Assembly: GCF_002259645.1 (NCBI RefSeq)
Contig: NZ_MWWV01000004.1
Coordinates: 62,001 to 126,000, forward strand
Length of the DNA: 64,000 bases
Direction: 5' to 3'
Source of the DNA: Bifidobacterium tissieri
GTDB lineage: Bacteria; Actinomycetota; Actinomycetes; Actinomycetales; Bifidobacteriaceae
The notes below the pieces were generated by a model that saw nothing but the letters and a program-made list of their open reading frames with translations, had not been told where the DNA came from and did not search any database. The position numbers and the translations under genes are program-made. Shown one piece after another: positions 14,399 through 63,148 of the stretch (positions are counted from its first letter, which is position 1; every line of letters begins with the position of its first letter).

Positions 14399-14477
14399 AA
14401 TTACCCTTAGAATCGTTGGAATTTCAACTATTCTGTTTACAAGGGTAGCCAAAAGGTAGCCATTGCTTGGCAAAAAG

Positions 14478-19474: not shown

Positions 19475-20662
19475 CTAATCTATTGACAGCATCGCTGCAA
19501 TCTCCGAGGTGGCCTTCAACATATCCGCCGTAGACACGTGTGTGTACACGGTATCGGTGACCGACACCGAAGCATGACCCATGATGGACTTACGCACGGC
19601 ACTGTTGAGCCCCAGTTGCATCATGGCGGTGGCGGCGGTATGGCGAGCGGAGTGGGGTACATAGTGGCCTTCGATCTGGGCATTGCTCAATGCCTTAGCA
19701 AAATGAGGTTCCTCATCCGCCTGCCTACGTAGATGCTTGCCATCGGCACCGACGAACACGAGATCATCCGGCCGTAGATTGCCACGGGCCTTGATGAATG
19801 CCAGCAGCTCTACAGCGAGCGATTGCGGGAGAGGAATCACTCGATAACCGCTGTTTGTCTTCGGCGGCACAAGATATGCCGAATCCTCAAGATAACGCAC
19901 GGACATATCGGCGGGAAAATCACGCTCGTCCTCCGAAAACTCCTGCAACTGCTGACGCACGACAATACAGCACACACCATCTATCATCTGCACCTCGTCA
20001 ACGGTCAGGCCAAGCCGTTCACCCTGACGCATACCCAGCTCGAATGACAGCCGCCACATGAGGTGCCACATCGGATCAGTCTCGGCATCAATAAGTGCAC
20101 GTGCCTGTGCGGCACTCAACGTGGAACGGGTGGCGGGACGTACACGTGGCGGCGTCGCACGGTCAGCAGGATTGTACTCGATTATGCCTTCCTTCACTGC
20201 ATCATCCAACGCCTTATGGAGAGTCCGCCACGCGCTACCAGCCGTTCCACTGGACTTGGGATTGCGGGGAGGTACGGAATCCGGGTCCCCTTTGGTAATC
20301 CACTGTTCCATAGCCCGAAAATGCTTGGGTTGCAGCTGGTGGAGTCGCACGCCGCCTATTGACGGCTTGATATCGGCGTTGACCACACTTGAGTACGTCT
20401 TCCATGTCTTAGGACGCAGGCGCGGCTTAACAAACTCTTTCAGCCAGCGGTCGAGCCAATCCCCCAACATCGGCGATGTCCTGTTAGGCAGCTTACCGGA
20501 ACGTTGATATTCACGTACCGCCTCATCCAGACGCATACGTGCAATCGCCTTCGTCTTACCACGCCGCTTCAGCACACGACGCTTCCCCGTAGCAGGGTCA
20601 GGAGGCAGAGCGAACGTAGCACGGAACCCATCACCATCAGCACAGCAAGCATATTGACGCAT
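19475..20662 (-). CDS. int: Tyrosine integrase
   Basis: A 395-residue phage/AICE-type site-specific recombinase. An N-terminal arm-binding domain (~1-60) is followed by a SAM-like core-binding domain (~65-165) and a catalytic domain. The catalytic residues appear in order: Arg in LGMRQGERLGL, HSARHTAA (HxxR), and the terminal GHASVSVTDTVYTHV with the nucleophilic Tyr. It should act on the 14-bp core at glnA. The start at 20662 lies 162 nt inside the right attachment site. GGGATAC copies at 20683 and 20695, with an inverted TATCCC at 20674, are possible arm sites. Confidence 0.93.
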   Translation of the reverse strand: MRQYACCADGDGFRATFALPPDPATGKRRVLKRRGKTKAIARMRLDEAVREYQRSGKLPNRTSPMLGDWLDRWLKEFVKPRLRPKTWKTYSSVVNADIKPSIGGVRLHQLQPKHFRAMEQWITKGDPDSVPPRNPKSSGTAGSAWRTLHKALDDAVKEGIIEYNPADRATPPRVRPATRSTLSAAQARALIDAETDPMWHLMWRLSFELGMRQGERLGLTVDEVQMIDGVCCIVVRQQLQEFSEDERDFPADMSVRYLEDSAYLVPPKTNSGYRVIPLPQSLAVELLAFIKARGNLRPDDLVFVGADGKHLRRQADEEPHFAKALSNAQIEGHYVPHSARHTAATAMMQLGLNSAVRKSIMGHASVSVTDTVYTHVSTADMLKATSEIAAMLSID

Positions 20663-21013: not shown

Positions 21014-21399
21014 ATTCTCTGTCGCTTGGCAGAGAACGAGCAAACGCCATGATTTTGTATTCTCTGCCACACCGTGTGGTAGGGAATACAAATACAAGCG
21101 TTTTTGGGCTTCCCTGCCAAGAAATCGTGGCAGAGAAGCCCAAATCCACGCAATACGGCGTTCGGTGCCACGCGGCCGCGGCACAGAACGCCATCACATC
21201 ACTATTTCGCATTCCCTGCCACGATCAGCATGTCAATCAGCGCAATATCAGCGACCGTAAGCCGCTCATGCGGCAAATCTGGCGGCATAATCCATGGAAA
21301 TCCGTGGCAGAGAACGCGGAAAAGTCCAGATTGCGCATTACGTGCCAAACCGCGTGGCAGAGAATGCCCATATAGGGCCTCAAACCATTCTCTGCCACG
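21014..21399. repeat. Palindrome array A with core TTCTCTGCCA / TGGCAGAGAA
   Basis: At least ten half-sites of the type RTTCYCTGCCA occur in alternating orientation and form local hairpins. The clearest arms are 21054-21070 with 21076-21092 (17 pairs, two G-U); 21103-21119 with 21128-21144 (17, one mismatch); 21157-21169 with 21180-21192 (13, one mismatch); and 21353-21366 with 21386-21399 (14, perfect). The outer arms differ (TTTGTA, TTTGGGC, GGCG) but stay complementary. Short open frames here only mirror the repeats. The region fills the gap between the glnA terminator and the antiporter. Confidence 0.85.
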
Positions 21400-27300: not shown

Positions 27301-27384
27301 AAAATCACAGAACTCGATAGTACCGAGAATTGGGCGTTGGAATTCCAATGGTCTATTTTCGGTACTATCGAGTTCTGTGATTTT
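27301..27384. repeat. 84-bp element with 26-bp perfect inverted arms
   Basis: Arms 27301-27326 and 27359-27384 are perfectly complementary. The 32-nt loop contains a second palindrome, TTGGAATTCCAA. On the minus strand the right end of the stem runs into TTTTTCG. It sits 15 nt after the stop of the GPH transporter and may act as its terminator. The AT-rich, perfectly paired stem is unlike the GC-rich terminators elsewhere in the window. No target duplication was seen. Confidence 0.85.
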
Positions 27385-31318: not shown

Positions 31319-31502
31319 TGACGGAGCGTTTTCGGCCTTACGGCGGGCTCGACGTACCGTTGTACGCCTTCGCCCGGCGACGGCCGAAACCACACACGTC
31401 ATCGTGATTGGTTGGATGATGGAGCGTCGTCTGCGTTGCGGAGGGATCGACGTACCTTTGTACGCCTTCACCCTCCGCGCCTTGACGACGCACGCATCAT
31501 CC
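31317..31502. repeat. Tandem pair of ~90-nt composite hairpins between kduD and the isomerase gene
   Basis: Copy 1 (31317-31403) overlaps the kduD stop; copy 2 is 31414-31502. Both fold into a long stem with several helices and share the inner CGACGTACC-K-TTGTACGCCTTC. The outer helices differ in sequence but pair in each copy: GATGACG/CGTCATC and TTTCGGCC/GGCCGAAA in copy 1; GGATGATG/CATCATCC, GCGTCGTC/GACGACGC and GCGGAGGG/CCCTCCGC in copy 2. Confidence 0.85.
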
Positions 31503-32238: not shown

Positions 32239-32293
32239 GCCCCGCGCCGCCACGCCGCCATCTCACGCGCCGCGGCCCTGCCGCCCGCCATAC

Positions 32294-32449
32294 CGTTACG
32301 TGGGCCGCGGTACATCGTACGTAGCGTTATGTGGGCCGTCGGCGGCCCACATAACGTTGCGTGGAAATCGTTGCAATATCAACGGTTTAGCGTGTGTGTT
32401 ACGTGGGCCGCCGACGGCCCACGTAACACATGGCGCGGCCCACGTAACG
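32294..32449. repeat. 156-nt nested palindrome able to form a three-way junction
   Basis: An outer 16-bp perfect stem (32294-32309 with 32434-32449) encloses two perfect hairpins: 32325-32338 with 32343-32356 (14 bp, 4-nt loop) and 32395-32410 with 32415-32430 (16 bp, 4-nt loop). All six arms are variants of TTACGTGGGCCG. It lies in the 483-nt gap between the isomerase gene and the GH28 gene. Confidence 0.88.
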
Positions 32450-40709: not shown

Positions 40710-41636
40710 TCACAATGGCATTGCGGTAAGGCGGAAATTCACATGCATGCCTCGTGTGGCCAGATATCTGCCGACCATGAACGCGAACAGGGATCGTGCA
40801 CTGTCATCGCAAAGATTGTCTGCGGTGACGACCATCACCACCCATCCCTGACTTCGCAGCAATTCCCGCTTTTCCTGATCGCGTCTCCATTGCGTCTTAT
40901 CCGTACGATGCTGGTCACCGTCGTACTCCACAGCGACCTTGACGTCAGGCCATGCCATATCCAGGGTCATTTCAACCCCGGACTGGAATGTGACACCCGG
41001 AACCACGTAATTAGTTTCGGGGTCCGGGATCCCATAGGTCGTCAAACACAATCTGGCCAACGTCTCCATCGGGGACATCACCCCGGTTCTGCACAAGGCC
41101 AACGCCTTGATGCAGTTGCGTTTCCCAAGAAACCGCTCACCATTGTTCACGAACTCGATCATGGCGTTTCGAATGGCATGAGCGTCCGTGTCGGGAGTTC
41201 CACGGTCTCGGGACAGTGTGGTAACCACCGCATCCGCCAACGCCACAAGGTCCACAAGCGCAATACGCGATGACATCTGTGCCCAGGTGTGGATCAGATC
41301 AAGCGCATACACATACTGATTGATACGTATGCACGAATCGGCGGTCAGTCGTTTCCACACGTGCGCCTGCAAACCCGAACCTCGCACACGCTTGTCCCAT
41401 GAACTCGAGACCGTGTGCAATCGCTCATCACCGACACTGGTAGACGCGACGCCCGACGGCACCGGAACCGCCTGTAGGACCAACGACGTCGTCATGCCAA
41501 ACAATATCGTGGTTCCGGCGCTCTTCGCCGCATCCGTGCAACGTCGAATCATATCCTGTCTACGGTCGGCCAAGGATACGCTCATGGCAGCATTGCCACG
41601 ATCATATCCGCCTCCATCATTCATTGTGGTCATCAT
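40710..41636 (-). CDS. AbiEi/DUF559-type protein with Vsr-like nuclease domain
   Basis: About 308 residues. The N-terminal part resembles the actinobacterial AbiEi-like fold (TILFGMTTSLVLQAVPVP). The C-terminal ~110 residues carry the PD-(D/E)XK/Vsr-like pattern LDMAWPDVKVAVEYDGDQH...KRELLRSQGWVVMVVTADNL, as in DUF559 proteins. Such proteins are common lone genes in Actinobacteria; role unknown, perhaps DNA repair or defence. The start is unclear: ATG 41636, 41633 or 41585 are possible and none has a strong ribosome site. The longer open frame to 41792 only reads the palindrome array and was cut. Confidence 0.7.
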   Translation of the reverse strand: MMTTMNDGGGYDRGNAAMSVSLADRRQDMIRRCTDAAKSAGTTILFGMTTSLVLQAVPVPSGVASTSVGDERLHTVSSSWDKRVRGSGLQAHVWKRLTADSCIRINQYVYALDLIHTWAQMSSRIALVDLVALADAVVTTLSRDRGTPDTDAHAIRNAMIEFVNNGERFLGKRNCIKALALCRTGVMSPMETLARLCLTTYGIPDPETNYVVPGVTFQSGVEMTLDMAWPDVKVAVEYDGDQHRTDKTQWRRDQEKRELLRSQGWVVMVVTADNLCDDSARSLFAFMVGRYLATRGMHVNFRLTAMPL

Positions 41637-41723
41637 GAAGCCACCGTATGCACGCCAATCGTCGGATGTCATCACCGGATGGGCAATGTGGTCGAATGTG
41701 AAATTGCCGTATATGGAATTGCA

Positions 41724-42116
41724 GTGGCAGAGAATACAGCAAAGACGCATTCCGACGTTCTCTGCCACGGCCTCTGGCAGAGAATACGACAATGAGGGTT
41801 TTTATTATTCTCTGCCAGCCCAAAAGGATCATTTCAAGCAATTCAAGGCTGGTATTCCCCACAACAACACCAAAATATGAACACTATCTCATTGTGTGAT
41901 CAATATGTTGGGAGCCCTTGTGGCAGGGAACGAAGAAAAGGTCCTGTGGAGCATTCTCTGCCAGCAGTTGTGGCAGAGAATGCAGAAATACGTCGCCGTC
42001 GCGTTCTGTGACATCAATCCGCGGCAGAGAAGAGGGAAAGACCCCGTTTTTTCGTTCTCTGCCACGCCGACTGGCAGAGAACGAAAAATATCGAAAAATC
42101 ATCATTCCCTGCTACG
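41724..42116. repeat. Palindrome array B, same core as array A
   Basis: About twelve half-sites of TTCTCTGCCA or its inverse. The best hairpins are 41724-41734/41758-41768 (11 bp), 41774-41786/41806-41818 (13 bp), 41951-41963/41971-41983 (13 bp) and 42048-42064/42072-42088 (17 bp), all perfect. The outer arms are distinct in each (TATT, GCATT, TTTTTCGTT). No gene with a ribosome site is present between 41637 and 42154. It lies between the nuclease-domain gene and the TIM-barrel isomerase gene, 20.7 kb from array A. Confidence 0.88.
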
Positions 42117-42154
42117 CCACATCCCACTCCCATCCCCCGATTCCGCCAGCACGA

Positions 42155-42997
42155 TCACAACGCCCCATACCGCTCGACGGTGCGGGCGATGGCCTCGTTT
42201 TCGGTCTGCTCAAGGATCACGGGGATCCACGGGCGAGCGTCAGAGACATGTTCCAGCACACCGCGCACATCCATCACGCCCTCATCCACGTTGCACCGGT
42301 GAATACCGGCCTCATCCACGGTGAAGTCATCGATATGCACCGCCACGATGCGCTCTCCGAATCGGTCAAGCGCCCGCCTGGTCAGCTCCACCTGGTCGAG
42401 ACCGTCCACGGTACGTCCGGTCGGCGTGGTGTAGGCGGTGGGATCGAACACAATGCCCAGATACGGGGAGTCAACATCAGTCAGCAGACGCTCGGTGGAT
42501 GCCAGATCGTGGATCGGATGGTTGGCACCCGGCTCAATGCCCACGATCGTACCGAACCGCTCGCCGGCGTCCACCAGTCGCCGGATCGCCGACAAGGCCT
42601 TCTGGTACATGGCTTCGGTAAAGTTTTCCTCGGTGAACCGCCCGGGCTCGGCGTCCACGGATCCGGTTTCGCTGGCCACCACGGGCGCGCCGAAGAACCG
42701 GGCGTGGGCGAGATACGTCTCGAATTTCCGCAGCAGCATCTCCCGCGTCTCACCATCGGGGTGGGTCATGTTGATGTAGCAGCCCAGCACGGCGATGTCC
42801 ACGCCGGCGTCGCCCAGCACGCGACGGAAGCGCATCCCCATGCCCGGATTGATCCTGGCCGCATCGGCAAGATCGGGGAATTGACGCGGCAGCGCGAGCT
42901 GCACATTGTGCACGCCATAGCGCCGCAACCCGGCCGCGAGCTTCTCCACGGTATCGGCATCGGTCACGTCATGGCCACGGGCACCGAAGTTGATCAT
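42155..42997 (-). CDS. Sugar-phosphate isomerase/epimerase-like TIM barrel
   Basis: A 280-residue protein of the xylose-isomerase-like/AP endonuclease 2 superfamily. Metal-site residues are expected in VGIEPGANHPIHD, GIVFDPTAY, VAVHIDDFTVDEAG and VILEQTENE. It probably rearranges or epimerises a keto-sugar derived from the pectic substrate; the exact reaction is unknown. The chosen ATG (42997) has GGAGG 6 nt upstream; the ATG at 43009 would include that site in the protein. It diverges from the AraC gene. Confidence 0.85.
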   Translation of the reverse strand: MINFGARGHDVTDADTVEKLAAGLRRYGVHNVQLALPRQFPDLADAARINPGMGMRFRRVLGDAGVDIAVLGCYINMTHPDGETREMLLRKFETYLAHARFFGAPVVASETGSVDAEPGRFTEENFTEAMYQKALSAIRRLVDAGERFGTIVGIEPGANHPIHDLASTERLLTDVDSPYLGIVFDPTAYTTPTGRTVDGLDQVELTRRALDRFGERIVAVHIDDFTVDEAGIHRCNVDEGVMDVRGVLEHVSDARPWIPVILEQTENEAIARTVERYGAL

Positions 42998-63037: not shown

Positions 63038-63047
63038 ACCCTATCCT

Positions 63048-63148
63048 TAGTGTGATCACACTATCGTGGCGTGGTCACACTATTTCGTTGCAATTGCAAG
63101 GATCTGACAGGCTTCTGGTTTCTTAGTGTGATCACACTAAGAAACCAG
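63048..63148. repeat. Palindromes with GTGTGATCACAC core after the alpha-galactosidase gene
   Basis: TAGTGTGATCACACTA (63048-63063) is a perfect 16-bp palindrome. A degenerate copy is at ~63069-63082. A perfect 34-bp palindrome without loop spans 63115-63148 with the same core and TTTCTTAG/CTAAGAAA outer arms. They may serve as terminators or operators. Confidence 0.8.

Follow-up and report, generated by a model that had tools for sequence, protein, structure and literature searches.

We report that array B, a set of palindromic half-sites in a 64,000-nucleotide stretch of Bifidobacterium tissieri DNA (the whole of which we call the window), is composed of regularly spaced units whose arms show no covariation and whose blocks are separated by gaps near whole helical turns, and that it adjoins a gene for a nuclease-like protein. 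We consider it rather probable that array B is a recognition array for this protein, forming a REPtron-like system with a homing-type nuclease, whose binding, cleavage, and mobility are putative. Different arms stand beside different genes at one locus in different species, part of the related genes are framed by their own elements, lone copies of such elements occur elsewhere, and two relatives lack one element-gene-element block at the orthologous position.

Array B and its family in the genome

Array B contains twelve half-sites of alternating orientation (TGGCAGAGAA and TTCTCTGCCA), ten with at most one mismatch and two (42004 and 42105) with two mismatches, in agreement with the roughly twelve counted in an earlier sequence-only reading. 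These half-sites form six 43-bp units of the pattern [T/C]GGCAGRGAA-N23-TTCTCTGCCA-like, starting at 41725, 41775, 41921, 41971, 42022, and 42072, with an interior of 23 bases and a spacing of 7 to 8 bp between adjacent units (Table 1). The four perfect hairpin-type stems of 11 to 17 bp that had been described are all present: one of 11 bp (41724-41734/41758-41768), two of 13 bp (41774-41786/41806-41818 and 41951-41963/41971-41983), and one of 17 bp (42048-42064/42072-42088). As claimed, the arm of the longest stem (TTTTTCGTTCTC) is absent from array A, which has the shorter CGTTCTCTGCCA twice. Half-site matches with at most one mismatch number 23 in the window versus 2.9 ± 1.8 in 100 shuffles. 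The exact 27-bp palindrome has two matches, in unrelated taxa, in a genome-contig collection from which near relatives may be missing.

Table 1. Coordinates in the window of array B, its presumed partner gene, and other elements
Feature	Positions	Strand
Array A: same family as array B, reversed orientation (four units, gap, two units)	21027..21397	
Third-family element (ATCACAGAACTC..GAGTTCTGTGAT), core-like GTTGGAATTCCAAT; arm (at most two mismatches) as at nuclease locus G000:C33:327190	27304..27381	
Second-family (GTTACGTGGGCC) array around core GTTGCAATATCAAC; arm also frames nuclease gene G000:C38:97008-97832	32295..32448	
Presumed partner ORF: DUF559/MTES_1575 Vsr-like (EDxHD-type) nuclease-like protein	40710..41792	-
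Array B: two 43-bp units, 103-bp gap, four units; period of about 50 bp	41725..42114	
Array B, two-unit block (units at 41725, 41775)	41725..41817	
Array B, gap; 146 bp from unit start to unit start, about 14 helical turns	41818..41920	
Array B, four-unit block (41921, 41971, 42022, 42072), with stems 41951-41983 (13-bp) and 42048-42088 (17-bp)	41921..42114	
Fourth-family element (TTAGTGTGATCACACTAA), core-like GTTGCAATTGCAAG	63047..63140	

In the 2.87-Mb assembly (38 contigs), exact half-sites number 92 versus 1 for the backward-read pattern, and 82 of the 92 fall inside 13 arrays, which bears out the suggestion of a dispersed mosaic family. By eye, the layout is mostly polar, with two units, a gap, and then four or five units, and its orientation is reversed in some arrays; two arrays (C23d and C33x) are degenerate. 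Also by eye, C23a resembles C33y across the array, and C12, C33z, and C38 resemble one another across both array and flanks. Arrays A and B are about 55% identical end to end and B is therefore not a recent copy of A, the origin by duplication that the sequence-only reading had set against its own proposal. Tandem repeats of 15 bp resembling TGGCAGACAACCAAG stand at the start of three homologous arrays (L042, L049, and L051) and might be a route by which arrays grow or decay.

We take the arrays to be intergenic because the ORFs that overlap them show a weak coding signal. Judging from protein sequences, their neighbors are what we take to be argG/argH, urtE/ureAB, pepC/prs, and ilvD/gmk, with no evident common theme among the genes beside arrays. 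Three of the 13 arrays sit between convergent gene ends, one between a 1178-aa gene and bioY, the other two between the genes that we take to be pepC/prs and ilvD/gmk. A tyrosine integrase gene adjoins array A (19475-20662, minus strand; PF00589, E = 4.8e-18), and no tRNA genes were found in the window. We rejected the integrase as array partner since the genes at the other inspected arrays are not integrases (nine proteins scanned, most flanks being named by eye).

The sequence-only reading had proposed looking for presence or absence from strain to strain; in relatives, no array is found in the pieces covering the argG 3' flank from seven or the array A region from six, which supports its dispersed family. 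Three of the six A-region pieces carry one or two lone sites, and argG and argH are not adjacent in most relatives.

Probable duplex sites and the adjoining nuclease-like gene

Of the 74 units, 56 were used to assess covariation between arms, those of three homologous arrays being left out. None was detected: over 12 arm column pairs, within units or between neighbors, the Watson-Crick excess was at most 2.8 pairs, and the paired arm columns 7/37 and 11/33 scored 28 versus 31.5 and 23 versus 27.8 (observed versus expected). The conserved stem-loop of REPtron and RAYT-REP elements is thus not seen in these 56 units. The gaps between blocks measure 62, 73, 84, 126, 136-137, 146-147, and 157 bp, and 12 non-redundant gaps are strongly phased at 10.5 bp (Rayleigh R = 0.968; 0 of 200,000 uniform nulls as high), which is the best period between 4 and 25. 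This test was run after the pattern had been noticed and with four 102-bp spacings set aside as two regular periods; when they are included, R is 0.76 and P is 1.5e-5. Within blocks, the unit repeat of 50.4 bp corresponds to 4.8 helical turns. Since the arms do not covary and the gaps cluster near whole helical turns, we view the arrays as places where a protein would bind double-stranded DNA, and not as hairpins. We likewise rejected an RNA reading: an Rfam search gave one match, outside array B and under the family threshold (E = 0.081), and no promoter or terminator patterns were found within 41600-42250. Nor do the arrays have the identical repeats and unique spacers of CRISPR, because their half-sites alternate and vary and related arrays have similar interiors.

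Array B lies upstream of the nuclease-like gene, on one side only. The longest ORF of this gene has a TTG start at 41792, which overlaps the array, and the true start codon probably lies further in. The window protein matches MTES_1575 (E = 1.3e-6, below the Pfam cut-off) and DUF559 (E = 1.3e-4, above the cut-off), and among 33 relatives these families are matched at E ≤ 0.01 by 25 and 17 proteins, respectively. A profile of the 33 relatives matches PDB 3r3p, "Mobile intron protein" (E = 1e-4), which we take to be I-Bth0305I, an EDxHD homing endonuclease. Across the 33 proteins, D249, E260, Y261, and H266 are conserved in at least 90%, while G263 and D276 are invariant, so that catalytic-domain homology and conserved residues both place the family with EDxHD/Vsr-like nucleases. 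The linked transposase for which the sequence-only reading had suggested a search is thus borne out in part: an enzyme gene stands beside array B, but it is Vsr-like, neither a RAYT nor a known transposase. Six nuclease-like matches occur in the genome and, among those inspected, only the one at the B locus adjoins the arm of this first family, so that 13 dispersed intergenic arrays go with one cognate gene, as in a REPtron.

Single PADLOC AbiEi models match up to 7 of the 33 relatives, and the window protein matches no PADLOC model, AbiEi included. A phage search found no relative of the window protein, and three distant relatives were found in viral contigs. A structure model of the window protein and the three viral relatives was set aside (mean pLDDT 39.5). 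MTES_1575 is listed as a novel Vsr REase in PMC3710099. In a literature search, mostly judged from listings rather than full text, no paper linking DUF559 or MTES_1575 to palindromic arrays was found.

Framing of related genes and turnover between species

How general is the association? With a profile of seven such proteins, 31 matches were obtained within the genus, where 9 of 9 genomes were positive, and 40 elsewhere in the family and order, where 10 of 22 genomes were positive. We fetched 60 loci of these 71 matches, counting L149 (unusable bounds) as negative, L153 and L170 being parts of one gene. At 13 of 60 loci, one and the same 9-mer forms an inverted pair in each flank of the gene, versus 0 of 232 control ORFs, all from this assembly, picked by GC pattern and possibly overlapping. 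Negatives number 47 and include B because its array is on one side only. With 144 controls, the figures are 14 of 60 versus 0 of 144, one of the 14 being L149, a bounds artefact. A one-sided count (33 of 60 loci versus 33 of 144 controls) separates poorly since array flanks and short repeats are present among the controls, and a pair on one side plus a copy on the other is found at 29 of 60 loci versus 11 of 232 controls. By eye, more loci have elements on one or both sides, the 3' side included. The framing copies are direct at L101 (about 300 bp, 88% identical) and inverted at L143 (219 bp, 97%).

By eye, many elements have a core like GTTGNAATTNCAAC between their arms. This core occurs 53 times forward and 47 times reverse in the genome, mostly at the same palindromic sites, versus 0 for the control. 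It is absent from the 13 first-family arrays here and present in the relatives' first-family arrays L059 and L060. A lone core (GTTGGAATTTCAAC) lies at window position 14415, intergenic and without arms of any recognized family. Similarity between arm words and between proteins is weakly correlated (Mantel test, rho 0.16, P = 0.026) for 28 of the 33 proteins, with words picked by hand and five proteins without a clear word left out; removing the closer pairs, with a cut-off of 0.5 or 0.6, gives P = 0.07 and 0.046, respectively.

Four of eight matches in a plasmid collection were inspected in named organisms. Elements flank the gene on either side in Collinsella aerofaciens, Arthrobacter sp. 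ERGS1:01, and one Tsukamurella tyrosinosolvens record, and framing is weak in a second Tsukamurella record. The Tsukamurella element is found at 12 places in nine records of T. tyrosinosolvens. Framing copies counted, the Collinsella and Arthrobacter elements are found at 18 and 7 places, respectively, in their own records; for the Arthrobacter element we make no claim of dispersal.

In relatives, the B locus is the site beside the orthologous isomerase gene, and its content varies. In G002 and G003, a nuclease that shares 24% identity with the window protein has AGTTCACGATTT palindromes on either side, and in G008, TTCACTCTTTT palindromes surround a nuclease that is 57% identical to that of G002 and 24% to that of the window. 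TGGCA-type sites lie near a 49% identical gene in G001 and G005; G004 has a 51% identical gene and no exact TGGCANNGAA site in its B-locus piece. Exact units of the first-family pattern were not found in G001, G002, G003, G006, or G007, and G008 has eight TGGCANNGAA units despite the other type of nuclease at its B locus. At the variable bases of TGGCANNGAA, GA is found in 63 of the 94 half-sites of this genome versus 2 of 26 in the units read in G004, G005, and G008. Identical units at L070 and L073 of G005 belong to one 3,043-base stretch present twice in the assembly and were not counted as movement. At another single locus (orthologs L106, L107, and L110), the flanks are 87 to 95% identical and the coding DNA 68 to 75%, with arms GAGTTCTGTG, ACTTCTGAAGT, and GAGTTCTGTGCG. 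Separately, window positions 31412-31501 match many places in near relatives and may encode the DNA-binding portion of a family of repressors.

Two further nuclease genes of this genome, the gene at C38:97008-97832 and the L206 gene, have dispersed families of their own. A 9-base part of the second-family arm GTTACGTGGGCC has 105 sites (backward control, 21), which form at least 14 clusters with a minimum of three sites; two of these clusters frame the C38 gene and one lies at window position 32295. The arms are near-symmetric about the core, mostly 20-22, 48-51, and 61-83 bp from its center in 12 of 13 arrays (one being without a core match). Helical phasing is weak in this family (R 0.55, P 0.0002 to 0.004 depending on the null), and the best period is not 10.5. 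One full GTTACGTGGGCC arm word lies at L115 position 1822 (G000:C38:97329), within the coding match of the second-family nuclease. The site at window position 32270 is a short intergenic piece in G003, bears a different array with a similar core in G002, and has TTCACTCTTTT elements in G004. The fourth-family arm TTAGTGTGATCACACTAA recurs at several sites on C7, C1, and C12; no partner nuclease was found among six candidates for this family or for the TTAGTGTGA family.

The L206 gene is framed by an element of about 115 bp (AATACGGGCTG..CAGCCCGTATT), of which there are 16 further copies (15 full and 1 partial) with common inverted ends. Inspection of 16 copies by eye revealed no target-site duplication. 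G002 and G003 lack the element-gene-element block; their orthologous site is occupied by about 107 bp that contain a different palindrome.

A putative nuclease-array system and its alternatives

We lean toward a partnership between nuclease and array in which the nuclease also has a role in array spread. The protein would bind TGGCAGRGAA half-sites on duplex DNA as a multimer, bringing the two unit blocks onto one face of the helix through wrapping or looping. The 13 arrays would be dispersed non-autonomous copies whose spread depends on the nuclease-like protein, either by homing-like cut-and-repair or by transposition-like copying. Related genes are often bracketed by two copies of their own element, so that a gene together with its elements would make up an autonomous form, with lone arrays as its non-autonomous counterpart. 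The arm word would change when the protein diverges or is replaced.

Alternatively, the arrays might be operators through which an AbiEi-like N-terminal regulator part controls its own gene and a dispersed regulon, the nuclease domain being secondary. The upstream position of array B, the AbiEi matches among relatives (at most 7 of 33 for any one model), and duplex sites with helical gaps all suit a regulator. We nevertheless regard this as unlikely since no promoter is expected between the convergent gene ends where three of the 13 arrays sit, array neighbors have no evident theme, related genes have elements on their 3' side too, and the window protein itself matches no AbiEi model. Conservation of half-sites but not of interiors, together with the layout of two units, gap, and four units seen by eye in most arrays, would also be compatible with architectural sites for nucleoid or chromosome organization, bound by a domesticated protein and now maintained by the host. 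That arrays are missing from the argG flank and A-region pieces of relatives, and that the arm word differs between species at one locus, makes this distinctly unlikely.

The Vsr/REase and AbiEi matches in relatives, and coding DNA more diverged than its neighbors at one orthologous locus, bring to mind a defense nuclease for which the arrays are self-marking, as decoys or exempt sites of a restriction-like protein. We hold this very improbable because no PADLOC model matches the window protein and framing by own elements is left unexplained. The least probable explanation in our view is that these are ordinary REP/BIME hairpins spread by a RAYT; the sequence-only reading had likened the arrays to REP/BIME elements, with a different motif. 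Although the arrays are intergenic, palindromic, mosaic, and dispersed, their arms do not covary, GTAG/CTAC accompanies 7 of 74 units (inside or nearby), and the gene beside array B is Vsr-like, so that a hairpin/REP identity is not supported.

The nuclease-array partnership that we favor resembles several known systems in part. In a REPtron, an enzyme gene adjoins its cognate palindromes, which are also scattered through intergenic DNA (PMC8266576). Here too, an enzyme gene has cognate palindromes that both adjoin it and are dispersed intergenically. However, the REPtron enzyme is the HUH-type TnpAREP rather than a Vsr-like protein, and REPtron palindromes carry a GTAG tag that most of the present units lack. 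Unlike in REPtrons, the arms here act as duplex half-sites with gaps near whole helical turns, a central core is common to several families, and the gene is often framed by two element copies. The system thus works like a REPtron but lacks what defines one in the features tested, and its enzyme is of homing-endonuclease type. I-Bth0305I is an EDxHD enzyme that dimerizes on a target of nearly 60 bp (PMC3943268). It is similar in its catalytic domain (E = 1e-4), and its target is of the order of the 43- to 50-bp unit; I-Bth0305I is encoded by an intron gene, whereas the genes here, putative homing genes, are chromosomal and free-standing and have dispersed palindromic elements. The L206 element resembles MITEs in its lone copies with common inverted ends, but has no visible target-site duplication to go with terminal inverted repeats, as DNA transposons and MITEs do, and its partner is no known transposase. 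The partner genes belong to the MTES_1575 REase and DUF559 families, for which the accessible part of PMC3710099 gives no link to palindromic arrays.

We see an even chance that Actinomycetota harbor a widespread, unrecognized class of elements, in which a fast-diverging Vsr-like nuclease gene is accompanied by palindromes carrying a family-specific word, and which spread within genomes and turn over between species, one intergenic site holding different families in different species. If true, dispersed actinobacterial palindromes would gain a partner and a mechanism open to testing, their distribution would be wide, and DUF559/MTES_1575 genes would gain a role. Because its own recognition word flanks each gene, the class would also offer a natural series of nuclease-target pairs for the study of how DNA specificity changes, and it would be an independent comparison for the spread of REP elements.
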